Shown here: positions 44,998-50,013 of the stretch, in pieces
How positions within the stretch are numbered: position 1 is the stretch's first letter
Layout of the letters: every line of letters begins with the position of its first letter
Origin: Clostridiaceae bacterium
GTDB taxonomy: Bacteria; Bacillota; Clostridia; Acetivibrionales; DUMB01
Direction: 5' to 3'
Length of the DNA: 50,013 nt
Assembly (NCBI GenBank): GCA_012840535.1
Contig: DULF01000062.1
Span: 1-50,013, forward strand
Position numbers and translations under genes: made by a program
The notes under the pieces: model-generated
Seen by the model: the letters and a program-made list of their open reading frames with translations, nothing else
What the model was told of the DNA's origin: nothing
Database searches by the model: none

Positions 44998-46236
44998 TCA
45001 TCTGTATTCATCAACCGCTTCAAACATTGCCTCGATATTCTCAGGCGGCACATCCGGCATAATATTGTGTACAGTATTGAACACAAAACCTCCGCCCGGA
45101 GCAAATGTTTCTATATTCCTTCTTACATGGTCCTTCACCTGTTGTGGAGTGCCTTGGTTTAAAACAGTGCGTGTATCGCATCCGCCGCCCCAAAAAGTTA
45201 TGTCCTTGCCAAACTCCTTTTTCAGCTTGCCTGGCTCCATATCCTTTGCACTTATTTGAACGGGGTTAATAATATCATATCCTGCTTCGATTAAATCGGG
45301 AATCAACTTATATATGGAACCGCATGAATGTAATAAAGTTTTCATTCCGCTGTTTTTCTTTACATATTCGCATAACATCTTATGCCTTGGCTTGAAAATT
45401 TTTCTATATATCTCTGGCGACATAAAAGGTCCGCTGTCCATGCCCAGGTCGTCACCAAACCTTATAATATCAACTACATCGCCCACCGCTTGGCATACTT
45501 TGGCGAGTGTATCCATGTGTATTTCCATTAACGCATCCAGTAAACGTTCAACCTCATCCGGACAAAGCACAAGATCCATAAGGAAATTATCAATCCGCCT
45601 CAAAAAAGTACCCCATTCAAACAAATTGCATCCGCATACAATCATTATGGCAAGGTCTGATGTTTTCCTTAACTCTATCGCTTTTTCCCTGAGCTTTGTC
45701 CAGAAGTCCTTGTCACATGCATTATCCCAGGGACTATGGGCAAGAGCCTGCCAATGCACTTTATTCATACTTTCATGAAGGTTTTTGTAATTATCCGGGT
45801 AGCCGTCTATAAAAGGAAACAACAATTGATCAAAAAATGTTGCTCCTTTAGGCATTTTGGCAATGGCTTCTCCATCCTTGGAATATACGATGTATGAACC
45901 GTCATCCTGCCCTACAGGCCTGAACCAGGAAGGATATTGCGCCTTGCTGCCGTCAGGCAGAAGTACGTCATACCAGTCTTCATCACTGTCATTGAACATT
46001 CTTCCTACATCCAGCACGTCAATCCTAAACCTGTCCAGGACTTCCATTTCAGGCTGTGTAACCTGCTGTACCACATCATATACCCTGTTGCGCGTATTGC
46101 TGATATTCAAATACTTTATAAGGTTATTGTATGCAATTGCGGATATGCCTGAACTTGGTGTTGCACCAAGATCCACCGCCAAATGATCTGGCTCCTTATG
46201 TGATATGCTGGCTAAAACTCGCTCTCTCGAATTCAT
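44998..46236 (-). CDS. Uroporphyrinogen decarboxylase-fold protein, methyltransferase-like zinc site
   Basis: A 412-residue TIM-barrel protein of the URO-D/MtaA superfamily. True URO-D makes coproporphyrinogen in haem synthesis; MtaA/CmuA-type relatives bind zinc and move methyl groups to or from corrinoids. Here the HxC...C zinc ligands of the methyltransferase branch look complete: LLHSCGS gives His303 and Cys305, and WGGGCDT gives Cys353. The opening NSRERVLASISHKEPDHLAV is usual for this branch. It is the last gene of the right-end cluster with two further relatives, a rhamnose mutarotase homologue and sugar-type transporter genes. The substrate is unknown. ATG start has only a weak ribosome site. 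Confidence 0.85.
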   Translation of the reverse strand: MNSRERVLASISHKEPDHLAVDLGATPSSGISAIAYNNLIKYLNISNTRNRVYDVVQQVTQPEMEVLDRFRIDVLDVGRMFNDSDEDWYDVLLPDGSKAQYPSWFRPVGQDDGSYIVYSKDGEAIAKMPKGATFFDQLLFPFIDGYPDNYKNLHESMNKVHWQALAHSPWDNACDKDFWTKLREKAIELRKTSDLAIMIVCGCNLFEWGTFLRRIDNFLMDLVLCPDEVERLLDALMEIHMDTLAKVCQAVGDVVDIIRFGDDLGMDSGPFMSPEIYRKIFKPRHKMLCEYVKKNSGMKTLLHSCGSIYKLIPDLIEAGYDIINPVQISAKDMEPGKLKKEFGKDITFWGGGCDTRTVLNQGTPQQVKDHVRRNIETFAPGGGFVFNTVHNIMPDVPPENIEAMFEAVDEYR

Positions 46237-46340
46237 ATCTGCATCATCCTATTCTTTGCTGCATTTATACTTATAACTTCTTATTCATGTTTTCAAAACT
46301 ATCGTGTCTTTTAATTCTCAATATCGAAAAATCCTGCACT

Positions 46341-46664
46341 CTAGTCCAAGTGGAAAACTTCTTCCATGTTTGCCCACCATTCGCCCTCTTCTCTTGTTTC
46401 CAAGGGCTCCTGGCATGGTTTGCAAACATCCCACCACCGTTGTGTTTCAGGATCTGCTGCCATCTTTGCCATATCCGCTTCAAAGTCATCCCCTACGTAT
46501 TCAAAGTATGCAAAAAGGTAACCGTCCTTGTGGTATATTGAATAGTTTTTAATATTGCATTCCTTTATCATCTTCAGAACTCCCGGCCATGGATTTGCGT
46601 GAAGCTTTTTATACTCTTCAAGTTTTTCAGGTTTTACTTTTATTACTTGTCCATACCGTTTCAT
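46341..46664 (-). CDS. rhaM: L-rhamnose mutarotase family protein
   Basis: A 107-residue protein of the RhaM family, which interconverts alpha and beta anomers of L-rhamnose. MKRYGQVIKVKPEKLEEYKK, the likely active His22 in KKLHANPW, NYSIYHKDGYLFAYFEYVGD and ADPETQRWWDVCKPCQEPL all match the family, with normal length. Homologues also occur in clusters for other sugars, so rhamnose is not certain. The ATG follows GAGGGGGAATG. It lies between two URO-D-fold genes, 104 bases from one and 101 from the other. Confidence 0.92.
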   Translation of the reverse strand: MKRYGQVIKVKPEKLEEYKKLHANPWPGVLKMIKECNIKNYSIYHKDGYLFAYFEYVGDDFEADMAKMAADPETQRWWDVCKPCQEPLETREEGEWWANMEEVFHLD

Positions 46665-46765
46665 TAAACATTCCCCCTCGCAAAATATTTTTATTAACTT
46701 ACATTTTATTTCCTTGAGCAGTTTTAATCTGTTATATATTAATAACTACCGCTTTAAAACCATGA

Positions 46766-47923
46766 TTACAGTTTTTCAATTTCCTTTCTGATCCTGTCAA
46801 GGTCCAGCGGATAGGTGCCATATTCTTTTAAAACTTCAACCGCGTACTTGTAGCTTTCCGGATCTACATCGCTGCTGACAGAATGGTCGGATTGAAATAC
46901 CCAACCTCCCCCTTTTGCAGCCTGGAGCTTGTAAAGTACGTGCTTTTTAATTTCATTGCGGTCTCCTTTTTCCAGGACTCTTATATCAATATTTCCGACA
47001 AAAGCCAGGCGGCCTCCGTATTTTTCCTTTAAAACTACTACATCAAGACCGGATTTTGCTTCCAACGGATTATACGCGTCCAGGCCAATCTCAATAAAGT
47101 CTTCATAAATGGGAATTGCATTGCCGCACCCATGGTATATTACCAGCAGGTTATTAGAATGGCACAGATCTATTAATGCTTTTACGTGGGGTTTAAACAA
47201 TTGCCGCCATGTATCAGGGCTAAAAAGCATTCCGTTGCGGTAAGCAACGTCACCCCATATATACATTCCTGAAAGCCTTCCCTTTCCTGCTTCAATTTGG
47301 GCTTTGCAAAACTTCAGGAGAAACTTTCCTATCCTGTCAACGAAGTCTTTAAATAATTCAGGTTCTTCTGCCATCCAGTAAAGGGCATTAACAGTACCAA
47401 TTATTCTCCACAGGTATTCATAAGGCTCACATACTGAACCGAATACTGCAAAATCTTCTATATATGCATTGACCCTTTCATCCCATGATGGGATGTTTCT
47501 TAACAAGGTGTCCCCCACGCAATTTATCTGGTCATCTCCGCCGCTGTAAAAACGCCTTGGGTCTGCCGGGTCATCGAATTCAAATTTTGCCATTTCCTCC
47601 GGACTGTTAATTGAAAAGCTTTCAAAATGAGGCATGGGAGCTGTTCCGGATCTTCTTATGACAGCTTCAAAACCTGTTTTGACAACTATATCTTCTCCTT
47701 CTTCCTTAATTATTTCAAACTGCTTGATATGAGGGTCCATATTTGGTGTGATAACTATATAGTCCAGGTCGAAAAACCTGTAGGGGTCAAAGTCCTGCCC
47801 CCATTTTTCCTTGCATTTTAAAACAAAGCCGGTCCAAAAAAAATCGCTTACCGGTACCCTGTCACCCTCTTTATGAGACAGTGCTGATCGAAGTCTTTTT
47901 ATTTTTTCTTCAGCTTTACCCAT
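46766..47923 (-). CDS. Uroporphyrinogen decarboxylase-fold protein
   Basis: A 385-residue relative of the URO-D superfamily. It opens with KAEEKIKRLRSALSHKEGDRVPVSDFFW. The zinc site is partial: IYHGCGNAIPI has the His-x-Cys pair, but the third ligand position aligns with FVGNIDIRV and has no Cys. VFQSDHSVSSDVDPE near the end is the usual final active-site loop. It may bind metal differently or have another catalytic use. The ATG at 47923 is set by GGAGGGAGAG upstream; a GTG three bases earlier is possible. It is 37 bases past the truncated paralogue. The function is unknown. Confidence 0.83.
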   Translation of the reverse strand: MGKAEEKIKRLRSALSHKEGDRVPVSDFFWTGFVLKCKEKWGQDFDPYRFFDLDYIVITPNMDPHIKQFEIIKEEGEDIVVKTGFEAVIRRSGTAPMPHFESFSINSPEEMAKFEFDDPADPRRFYSGGDDQINCVGDTLLRNIPSWDERVNAYIEDFAVFGSVCEPYEYLWRIIGTVNALYWMAEEPELFKDFVDRIGKFLLKFCKAQIEAGKGRLSGMYIWGDVAYRNGMLFSPDTWRQLFKPHVKALIDLCHSNNLLVIYHGCGNAIPIYEDFIEIGLDAYNPLEAKSGLDVVVLKEKYGGRLAFVGNIDIRVLEKGDRNEIKKHVLYKLQAAKGGGWVFQSDHSVSSDVDPESYKYAVEVLKEYGTYPLDLDRIRKEIEKL

Positions 47924-47960
47924 CACAAAACTCTCCCTCCTTTACGCTTTAATCAATTCA

Positions 47961-48719
47961 TCAATATGTGCATTCTCTTGCAGCCTCTGCATATGCAATA
48001 AGGTTCTCTTTCGGCGCCTCAAAAAAATGGTCGCAGGTTGACATGATATACCCGCCGCCTCTGCCAAAAACCTCAAACAATCTGTAAACTTCTTTTTTAA
48101 TATCTTGTGGTTTGCCTTTTTCTAGAAAGTTTATCTGATCCATTCCTCCGATAAGGGCAACCTTTCCGTGAAGCGCCTCGTAGACTTCAGGACCTTCAAT
48201 ATTGCCACCTATACTCGCTGGAGACAATGTCTCTGAAGCGTCAGTGCCGGTAGCAATAATCAAATCAAATAATCCCTTCATTCCTCCGCAGGTGTGGTAA
48301 GTGGATATATGTCCAATATCATGAAGCGCATCATGTATTTTTTTATCATATGGCAGACAGAACTTCTCAAACAGCGCAGGAGATATCAAAGTTGATGACG
48401 CCGCTCCTCCGCCGGTTTCAATGAGGTCAAATTTTGCTCCCTTTAAAGATTCATAAATAAACTCAAGCTTTTTATCCAGGAGTATTCCTAAAAACTCGTG
48501 CACCCAGTCGGGCTGGTCATATGCTGCAAATATCATGTTGTTTTCGCCATAGTAACAACAAGCCTGCTGCCAGCAGCCTGCCTGTTCACCCCATACAAAT
48601 CCTCTAAGTATGCCCGCATCTCCGATTTCGTCATATCTTTTTTCAACATCCTTTTTATCAAGCTTGGGAACAGGTAAATATTTCAGTAACTTTATATCGT
48701 CATAATCCTTTATCAGCAG
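47961..48719 (-). pseudogene. Truncated uroporphyrinogen decarboxylase-fold gene (N-terminus deleted)
   Basis: The frame is open from 48719 to the stop at 47961 (252 codons) and starts abruptly after a TGA at 48722-48720. The encoded sequence is family-like from its first residues (KYLPVPKLDKKDVEKRYDEI, FVWGEQAGCW, then YHTCGGMKG as the His-x-Cys site). About 100 N-terminal residues usual in the family are missing. The first ATG, at 48536, has no ribosome site and would lose 61 further conserved residues. What lies upstream is the start of a permease gene instead. This is best read as the 3' part of a gene left by a deletion. Confidence 0.8.
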
Positions 48720-48825
48720 TCATTATAATTACTATCAGGATAAGCAGCACATATGCCCTGTTATTATTTAATTTTGATACAATCAATGTTTTGTCCGTTT
48801 TAAAATTCTTTATCATATTATGCAT
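48700..48825 (-). pseudogene. 5' fragment of a second sugar ABC transporter permease gene
   Basis: An ATG at 48825 overlaps the stop of the upstream permease gene by eight bases, as paired permease genes often do. It encodes 41 residues with a polar N-terminus and then the start of a membrane segment (NNNRAYVLLILIVIIMTA), which is how RbsC-type permeases begin. After that the frame runs into the URO-D remnant and stops at 48700. The rest of the permease (about 280 residues) is gone. The identification rests on position and the form of a short segment, so it is tentative. Confidence 0.6.
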
Positions 48826-49909
48826 AGTCACGCCCCATCTTTCTTAATGATCTGGCATTTACGTAAACTACCAGGATAAATATTGCTCCCGTTATCATTT
48901 TTCGCGTAAAGGTACCTATACCAATCAATGTAAGAATGTTGCTGATGAGCCCGAGTGTAAATACACCGCCAAAAACGCCAATCATATTTCCCCTGCCGCC
49001 GGCAAGGCTCATACCTCCCAGTATAAGAGCTGTTACTGCCTGGAAATCATAACCCTGTCCAATATAAAACGCACCTACCTGGTTTAATGATGTCATGAAT
49101 ATGCCTCCAATGGATGCACATATTGAAGATATTATAAAGGCAAACATGATCGTTCTCGTGCAGTTTATACCCGACATCCTGGCAACATTATAATTGGAAC
49201 CTACAACTTTGAGCTGGTTGCCGAATGTTGTCTTGGACATAACGATATATCCTGCAATCATCACTGCAAACATAATATACAAAACAAGAGGAACTCCAAG
49301 TGGATAAGTTAATGCAAGACCGTTAAAAGCAGCTGCCCTTGCCTGTAAATCAATGTTTAGTATATTTGGATCCAGCTTATACATTAGAGGAAGAAAAAAA
49401 CCAGTCTTATATGTCTCCTCAGTTGCCATGTCCGGGTAAATCTGCGTTCCGTGGTACGACCATCTTACAAGCCCTTCCAGAATAAAGTTCATTGCCATGG
49501 TCCAGATTACTGAATTAACCCTGATCTTTCCAACAACGAAACCATTAATGGTACCGATAATAATACCAGTAATCACTGCTGCAATCATACCATATACCAA
49601 GCCGTACCTCATGAATTCCACACAAATAACACCGGTAATGGCCATTGTCATCGGGGCCGACATGTCAGCATAATGCCCGCTGTAAATTACGAATGCAATA
49701 CCTGTTGCGACAATCCCCAAATATGAAACTGCATTTAATATATTTAACAAATTACTACCGGTTAGGAATTTTGGCGATACTATTATTCCAAATACAGCCA
49801 AAACACCTATCATAAAAAATACACCAAATCTTGATACAATTCTGCTGAATAAGTCAAATTTCAGGCTTCTTGTATCCCTTTTTACTTCACAGTATACATT
49901 TTCTTCCAC
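48818..49909 (-). CDS. Sugar ABC transporter permease (RbsC/BPD_transp_2 family)
   Basis: A 363-residue inner-membrane permease with about nine to ten hydrophobic segments. GNQLKVVGSNYNVARMSGIN is the ATPase-docking loop of ribose/galactose-type (CUT2) importers, and ALILGGMSLAGGRGNMIGVF is their typical C-terminal signature. SGHYADMSAPMTMAITGV near the N-terminus replaces the usual IDLSVG motif with a variant. The GTG at 49909 is chosen because AAGGAGG lies eight bases upstream; the longer frame to 49987 overlaps the ATPase gene. It probably pairs with a partner permease, which here survives only as a fragment. Confidence 0.88.
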   Translation of the reverse strand: MEENVYCEVKRDTRSLKFDLFSRIVSRFGVFFMIGVLAVFGIIVSPKFLTGSNLLNILNAVSYLGIVATGIAFVIYSGHYADMSAPMTMAITGVICVEFMRYGLVYGMIAAVITGIIIGTINGFVVGKIRVNSVIWTMAMNFILEGLVRWSYHGTQIYPDMATEETYKTGFFLPLMYKLDPNILNIDLQARAAAFNGLALTYPLGVPLVLYIMFAVMIAGYIVMSKTTFGNQLKVVGSNYNVARMSGINCTRTIMFAFIISSICASIGGIFMTSLNQVGAFYIGQGYDFQAVTALILGGMSLAGGRGNMIGVFGGVFTLGLISNILTLIGIGTFTRKMITGAIFILVVYVNARSLRKMGRDYA

Positions 49910-49922
49910 AAACAATACCTCC

Positions 49923-50013
49923 TTACCCGTTTGCTGCCAGCAGTAATTTGTTCTCGTCAAGTTCACCTGTAAGCTCTCCAGTAACATGCCCCCGTCTTAA
50001 TACCAGCACCCTG
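49923..50013 (-). CDS. Sugar ABC transporter ATP-binding protein, C-terminal end only
   Basis: The window cuts this gene. The last 29 codons read RVLVLRRGHVTGELTGELDE followed by NKLLLAANG and TAA. The form RxGxxTGEL is how RbsA/MglA-type CUT2 ATPases end. It lies 13 bases before the permease GTG, with AAGGAGG in between. It is in the right order for a sugar import operon. Too little is visible to say more. Confidence 0.65.
   Translation of the reverse strand, partial: RVLVLRRGHVTGELTGELDENKLLLAANG

Follow-up and report, generated by a model that had tools for sequence, protein, structure and literature searches.

The window analyzed here, 50,013 b of DNA from a Clostridiaceae bacterium, is the entire contig C43 of a 3.19-Mb, 240-contig assembly (genome G000), and its end raises the question of what proteins with the uroporphyrinogen decarboxylase (URO-D) fold are doing beside genes for the uptake and mutarotation of a sugar. 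A single minus-strand run (44998-49987) contained three matches to PF01208 (cut-off 23.9 bits), one rhaM gene and one intact CUT2 permease gene. Transcription on the minus strand of 44998-50013 runs from the ATPase end through permease 1, a permease 2 stub of about 40 codons and a fragmentary URO-D gene (URO-D3) to URO-D2, rhaM and URO-D1 (Table 1). The analysis demonstrated that the deoxysugar operon represented here is real and widely conserved, that the window holds a damaged copy of it, and that the enzyme slots of the operon are filled by URO-D-fold proteins. The best explanation of the system was that it serves the uptake and corrinoid-dependent demethylation of an O-methylated 6-deoxyhexose of the fucose or rhamnose type, a reading to which we give about an even chance.

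The intact operon and its linkage with deoxysugar genes

The intact operon (locus L069) was found in G001, a genome of the same family whose URO-D1 is 87% identical to that of the window. There, a divergent LacI regulator is followed by URO-D4 (349 amino acids, aa), the ATPase, permease 1, permease 2, a Peripla_BP_4 binding protein, URO-D3 (371 aa), URO-D2, rhaM and URO-D1. This operon holds all the parts of a CUT2 importer (a Peripla_BP_4 binding protein, two BPD_transp_2 permeases and a double ATPase), and the window copy is incomplete. A reading made from the sequence alone had described a trio of URO-D genes in one run with rhaM and CUT2 transporter genes. The run proved to be real, although only two of its URO-D genes are intact (412 and 386 aa) and the third is truncated; the trio itself did not hold, as the intact operon has four such genes, one of them broken in the window. 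Transporter genes were likewise present, but with one intact permease only, since permease 2 is a stub of about 40 codons and the contig stops within the ATPase.

In the window, URO-D3 lacks its first ~120 codons and is fused at ~48716 to the start of permease 2. In G001, ~2.9 kb separates these junction ends and encodes the binding protein, flanked by the remainder of permease 2 and the N-terminus of URO-D3; this piece, binding protein included, was not found elsewhere in the window's assembly. The sequence-only reading had proposed to look past position 50013 for the regulator and the binding protein. The regulator and a portion of the ATPase lie on contig C5, which has lost URO-D4 and in which the ATPase runs into the middle of permease 1. 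These other deletions, and an identity of only 95.7% over the 140 bases that C5 and C43 share, make it likely that several strains, or joins made in assembly, are involved. The ratio of nonsynonymous to synonymous substitution rates (dN/dS) was 0.04-0.06 for every gene, the fragment included (0.04 against 0.05-0.06 for its neighbors), and since the URO-D3 fragment is as constrained as its neighbors, any real deletion would be recent. Further broken URO-D genes were noted on contigs C80 (split frames) and C11 (an in-frame TGA), which, with the variants of C5 and C43, are put down to mixed strains or assembly errors.

The neighborhood survey covered the best 80 URO-D1 loci from one scan of GTDB species genomes, comprising a close clade of 37 loci (L089-L125), mostly at 59-65% identity (50-54% in Lokiarchaeota), and 43 more distant loci. 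The close clade spans Clostridia, Spirochaetota, Verrucomicrobia, Lentisphaerae, Planctomycetota, Bacteroidota, Bipolaricaulota and Lokiarchaeota. The conserved linkage of rhaM with URO-D genes that the sequence-only reading had proposed to look for was found across phyla: rhaM lay within 5 kb of URO-D1 at 13 of the 37 close loci, on the same strand in every case, and at one of the 43 distant loci, with about 0.4 such neighbors expected by chance. Other neighbors within 5 kb at the close loci were RhaT (9 loci), GH29 fucosidase (9), URO-D2 (8), SSF symporters (6), CUT2 ABC genes (4-6) and a Pfam-less protein of ~430 aa (5). These operon partners point to 6-deoxyhexoses as the substrate class. 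The rhaM product exceeded the PF05336 threshold (124 against 23.4 bits) and fell below the L-rhamnose mutarotase equivalog TIGR02625 (49 against 99.6 bits), so that it is assigned by sequence to the RhaM family and the TIGR02625 score does not fix its specific sugar.

The transporters, mutarotases and glycosidases here belong to the same families as those of L-rhamnose and L-fucose operons (RhaT, RhaM, FucU, GH29). Unlike in those operons, however, no isomerase, kinase or aldolase recurs, and URO-D proteins fill the enzyme slots. Nor did a dehydrogenase recur; these negatives all refer to the neighborhoods of URO-D1. Genome G000 (3.2 Mb) has 40 PF01208 matches, many of them beside sugar ABC transporters, glycosidases, PfkB kinases or dehydrogenases. 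On its contig C177 (L023:5567-12481), a second rhaM cluster includes three URO-D genes, a flavin-reductase-like protein and a GH106 rhamnosidase. Moreover, relatives of URO-D1 in G001 (L071:7867-9592) and G035, as well as at L074:8363-13769, stand with an RbsD/FucU-family mutarotase; in L071 and L074 they lie in CUT2 operons that have no rhaM. This partner is a hint of a ribose-type substrate.

Fold, active site and nearest known enzymes

The AlphaFold2 model of URO-D1, built with a 50-sequence alignment, reached a predicted local distance difference test score (pLDDT) of 96.7 and a predicted template modeling score (pTM) of 0.93, and the predicted structure is a URO-D-type TIM barrel. Its best PDB matches were the MtaA structures 4AY8 and 4AY7 (4AY8: E = 2e-13, TM 0.57/0.67), followed by HemE structures and then MetE. 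MtaA was the best PDB match by sequence as well as by fold, and the chloromethane methyltransferase CdmB gave a weak sequence match (E = 4e-4). The three URO-D genes of the window scored 30, 30 and 18 bits with the HemE equivalog TIGR01464 (cut-off 303 bits), which ruled out an ordinary HemE identity and agreed with the earlier view that this is not heme synthesis. With the MtaA/CmuA model TIGR01463 (cut-off 235 bits), the scores were 58, 53 and 74 bits, and 77 bits for full-length URO-D3.

Among 50 relatives of URO-D1 (36-87% identity to the window protein), His303 and Asp262 were conserved in all, Asp263, Glu207 and His390 in 49 and Cys305 in 48, whereas position 353 was Cys in 23 and Val, Ile or Ala in the other 27. 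When URO-D1 is aligned with MtaA (4AY7), the two proteins have their H-x-C motifs at the same place, and the third zinc Cys of MtaA (in APGC) faces His390. These comparisons define a conserved center of His303-Cys305-His390, which is probably occupied by a metal. The claim of a full zinc site of His303, Cys305 and Cys353, as in corrinoid methyltransferases, had to be abandoned, since Cys353 is neither well conserved nor at the MtaA ligand position. A Cys at that position is absent from URO-D1; it occurs instead in the truncated URO-D3, which has HxC and a Cys at the third-ligand position or one residue off it (the alignment is uncertain by one residue). The His-Cys-Cys zinc site of the MtaA/CmuA family may thus be present in URO-D3 and is missing from URO-D1. 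URO-D2 and URO-D4 also have His at the third-ligand position.

In this superfamily, His-Cys-Cys is the pattern of S-methyltransferases, and O-methyltransferases are without one or both Cys residues (PMC10418091). The full HxC...C site would therefore have favored sulfur chemistry, not O-demethylation. The third ligand of URO-D1, not being Cys, departs from the S-methyltransferase site and was counted in favor of an O-methyl substrate. In a Bipolaricaulota URO-D1 (L118:2383-3624), Cys305 of the HxC motif has given way to Asp; a carboxylate has also been reported for O-methyltransferases of this superfamily (PMC10418091).

Compared with known enzymes, URO-D1 shares the fold and the barrel H-x-C motif with MtaA and MtbA, the methylcobalamin:coenzyme M methyltransferases of the UroD superfamily. 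It differs from them in scoring far under TIGR01463, in having His390 for the third zinc Cys, in being ~60 residues longer and in residing in sugar operons, not in methanogenesis. The superfamily also includes methyltransferase I enzymes (MtvB, OdmB, VdmB, MtoB and CdmB), and URO-D1 would likewise need a standalone corrinoid protein and an activase; those enzymes, however, act on methoxylated aromatics or haloalkanes and, unlike URO-D1, are usually encoded beside their own corrinoid gene. Among them, CdmB is free of zinc (PMC13222342). Type 1 mlp clusters, known from non-methanogens, likewise combine several MtaA-like paralogues with a corrinoid protein and an activase, the paralogues being His-Cys-Cys S/Se-methyltransferases in one cluster without a folate methylase (Kountz and Balskus, PMC10418091). 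In contrast, the URO-D genes here are scattered over sugar operons and are not His-Cys-Cys, and the locus has no corrinoid or Ram gene, so that it lacks the run of at least two Mlps, corrinoid protein and Ram on one strand. The system would work most like a UroD-superfamily O-demethylase. Yet it cannot be filed as one, because a corrinoid gene is absent from the window locus and from 79 of the 80 loci and because its activity is putative.

Corrinoid genes and the reaction of the URO-D proteins

The idea of methyl transfer, which the sequence-only reading had put forward, was supported by a corrinoid operon, by the co-occurrence of URO-D1 with standalone corrinoid proteins and by a partner protein in the window's genome. 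In Carboxylicivirga sediminis JR1 (L107), genes for RhaT, a URO-D1 62% identical to that of the window, rhaM, a corrinoid protein (L107:11638-12306), an MtaA-like-thioredoxin protein, CobW and a MetH-activation-like domain follow each other on one strand with gaps of ~50 bp or less, and a GH29 fucosidase lies beyond the run. A second cluster of this bacterium (L205) has a URO-D protein, a corrinoid protein and an MtaA-like protein together with a galactokinase, a KDPG aldolase and a PfkB kinase. A full-length, 56% identical copy of the L107 MtaA-like-thioredoxin protein is encoded in the window's genome, beside a CobW GTPase on contig C86, as are one corrinoid protein (B12-binding_2), RACo on C65 and MtrH on C127. 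On C86 (L019:3407-5050), the MtaA-like methyltransferase is fused to a thioredoxin domain and is followed by a separate small thioredoxin-like open reading frame and the CobW gene. Both this protein and URO-D3 keep the C-terminal Cys.

A standalone corrinoid protein was found in 33 of the 35 genomes with a close URO-D1. Among 247 Bacteroidales genomes, URO-D1 occurred in 4 and the L107-type corrinoid protein in 26, with all 4 among the 26 (p = 1e-4, ancestry ignored). In three URO-D1 genomes (L206, L209, L214), the corrinoid gene lies with MtrH and MTHFR and with no methyltransferase I in the cluster, as a shared acceptor system would. In another, G093 (L218:8724-16700), a corrinoid protein and MtaB were found near CobW, a FucU mutarotase, an MFS sugar transporter and GH29. 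Within Clostridia, a conserved hub was observed (L169-L178) in which a standalone corrinoid protein is accompanied by a PocR-AraC regulator, RACo, MtrH or an MtaA-like URO-D; the genomes that carry it often lack full-length MetH. This hub was enriched in URO-D-rich genomes (14/17 versus 14/43; p = 6e-4), and it was set aside as clean evidence of demethylation since it also replaces MetH.

According to the favored mechanism, GH29 fucosidase and GH106 rhamnosidase would release the methylated sugar from glycans, the CUT2 ABC importer (RhaT or SSF symporters in other phyla), whose gene linkage is plain and whose substrate is putative, would import it, and the RhaM-family mutarotase would, judging by its family, interconvert the anomers. 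URO-D1, probably with URO-D2 and URO-D4, would then act as methyltransferase I, binding the sugar at His303-Cys305-His390, probably a metal center, and passing the O-methyl group to cob(I)alamin on a standalone corrinoid protein whose gene lies elsewhere. The methyl group could be unloaded by MtrH to folate, or by the MtaA-like-thioredoxin protein of C86 or URO-D3 to a thiol, and RACo would reactivate the corrinoid; the genes for these steps are present and the roles presumed. The demethylated sugar would join ordinary pathways.

Several observations weigh against sugar demethylation. L107 was the exception in having a recognised corrinoid gene near URO-D1; none was recognised in the window or at the other 79 loci. 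The window's genome holds 40 URO-D matches against one corrinoid protein, which ruled out that each URO-D protein has its own corrinoid partner. No corrinoid protein was found in two URO-D-rich relatives, G010 and G022 (85-89% complete). Furthermore, genomes of the window's order often have the corrinoid hub instead of a full-length MetH, and the corrinoid protein of the hub may therefore serve methionine synthesis; the MtaB clusters, such as the methanol-type methyltransferase in the fucose cluster L218, may simply use methanol. The co-occurrence tests are uncorrected for common ancestry, no O-demethylase is documented with a His-Cys-His zinc site, no O-methyl-sugar enzyme at the loci marks the substrate, and the URO-D fold alone is no proof of methyl transfer. 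The scarcity of corrinoid genes also favors a different view, possible but clearly the less probable one, that the URO-D proteins perform other sugar chemistry (isomerization, epimerization, aldol or carbon-oxygen cleavage) at the His-Cys-His metal center with Asp262 and Asp263 and no corrinoid, in place of the usual isomerase-kinase-aldolase route. The core set of transporter, mutarotase and URO-D proteins with no recurring kinase, isomerase or dehydrogenase is consistent with this, as is the L071 operon of G001, with RbsD in place of rhaM and no kinase. However, no URO-D-fold enzyme of such activity was found in the literature searched, and the Carboxylicivirga operon and the corrinoid co-occurrence would be left unexplained. 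At a slightly lower probability still, the URO-D proteins may be a new metal-dependent, corrinoid-free class acting directly on deoxysugars and grown to ~40 paralogues within a single genome, many of them linked to a sugar transporter of their own; if so, they would constitute a layer of anaerobic carbohydrate catabolism with novel chemistry.

It is improbable that the methyl group moved by URO-D1 has a source other than a sugar, or reaches a thiol with no corrinoid carrier, as in MetE, and that the sugar genes are merely co-regulated. The superfamily does include corrinoid-free zinc methyltransferases, MetE being among the weaker fold matches, and the C-terminal Cys retained in URO-D3 and the MtaA-like-thioredoxin protein would suit a thiol acceptor. 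Nevertheless, URO-D1 is repeatedly accompanied by sugar transporters, mutarotases and glycosidases in several phyla and under different regulators (LacI, AraC), which is hard to account for as co-regulation. That these are ordinary uroporphyrinogen decarboxylases of heme synthesis, or functionless duplicates, hardly deserves credence: all carry PF01208 and the URO-D fold and the window copy is damaged, but the low HemE scores, the 40 copies in one genome, the strong purifying selection (dN/dS as above) and the 59-65% identical orthologs across phyla contradict it.

O-methylated deoxysugars are present in plant, algal and bacterial glycans, and the oxygen-free removal of their methyl groups needs special chemistry. 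A corrinoid sugar O-demethylase, if confirmed, would take O-demethylation beyond aromatic methoxyl groups into carbohydrates and account for the large sets of genes annotated as uroporphyrinogen decarboxylase beside sugar transporters in anaerobes. No publication linking URO-D to rhamnose mutarotase, fucose or methylated sugars, or describing a demethylating system of this kind for sugars, was found in open-access text, where absence is no proof of novelty. C. sediminis is a cultured bacterium, so sugar demethylation is directly testable.

Coordinates and neighboring families

The features of the run are listed in Table 1; the true start of permease 1 is probably nearer 49905.

Table 1. Features at the end of the window, in order of position (aa, amino acids)
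Feature	Position	Strand	Remarks
URO-D1, URO-D-fold protein, 412 aa	44998..46236	-	PF01208 92 bits; MtaA 4AY8/4AY7 best PDB match; G001 ortholog 87% identical
rhaM-family sugar mutarotase, 107 aa	46341..46664	-	PF05336 124 bits
URO-D2, URO-D-fold protein, 386 aa	46766..47926	-	PF01208 86 bits; G001 ortholog 86% identical; HxC and His at MtaA third-ligand position
URO-D3, truncated, last ~251 codons of a 371-aa URO-D-fold protein	47961..48719	-	PF01208 71 bits; aligns with residues 121-371 of G001 URO-D3; TIGR01463 73.5 bits, under cut-off
CUT2 permease 2 start, ~40 codons, ended by junction at ~48716	48700..48825	-	Matches N-terminus of 375-aa G001 permease
CUT2 permease 1, 389 aa as listed	48818..49987	-	PF02653 106 bits; AraH/RbsC-like in NCBIfam, under equivalog cut-offs
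ABC ATPase, last ~30 codons, cut by contig end	49923..50012	-	DNA match to G001 ATPase end; more on contig C5

The ~430-aa family found beside URO-D1 (L099:12166-13446; also L091, L092, L097, L098, L105, L030 and L078) has no Pfam or PDB sequence match, a conserved GCCEP motif and a predicted URO-D fold, and it often lies beside URO-D1, URO-D4 and rhaM. In addition, chimeric regulators of ~760-775 aa adjoin these operons (L069:12361-14646, L087:1323-3647, L099:1909-4194), in which a LacI DNA-binding and ligand domain is fused to an extracellular-type SBP_bac_1 solute-binding domain.

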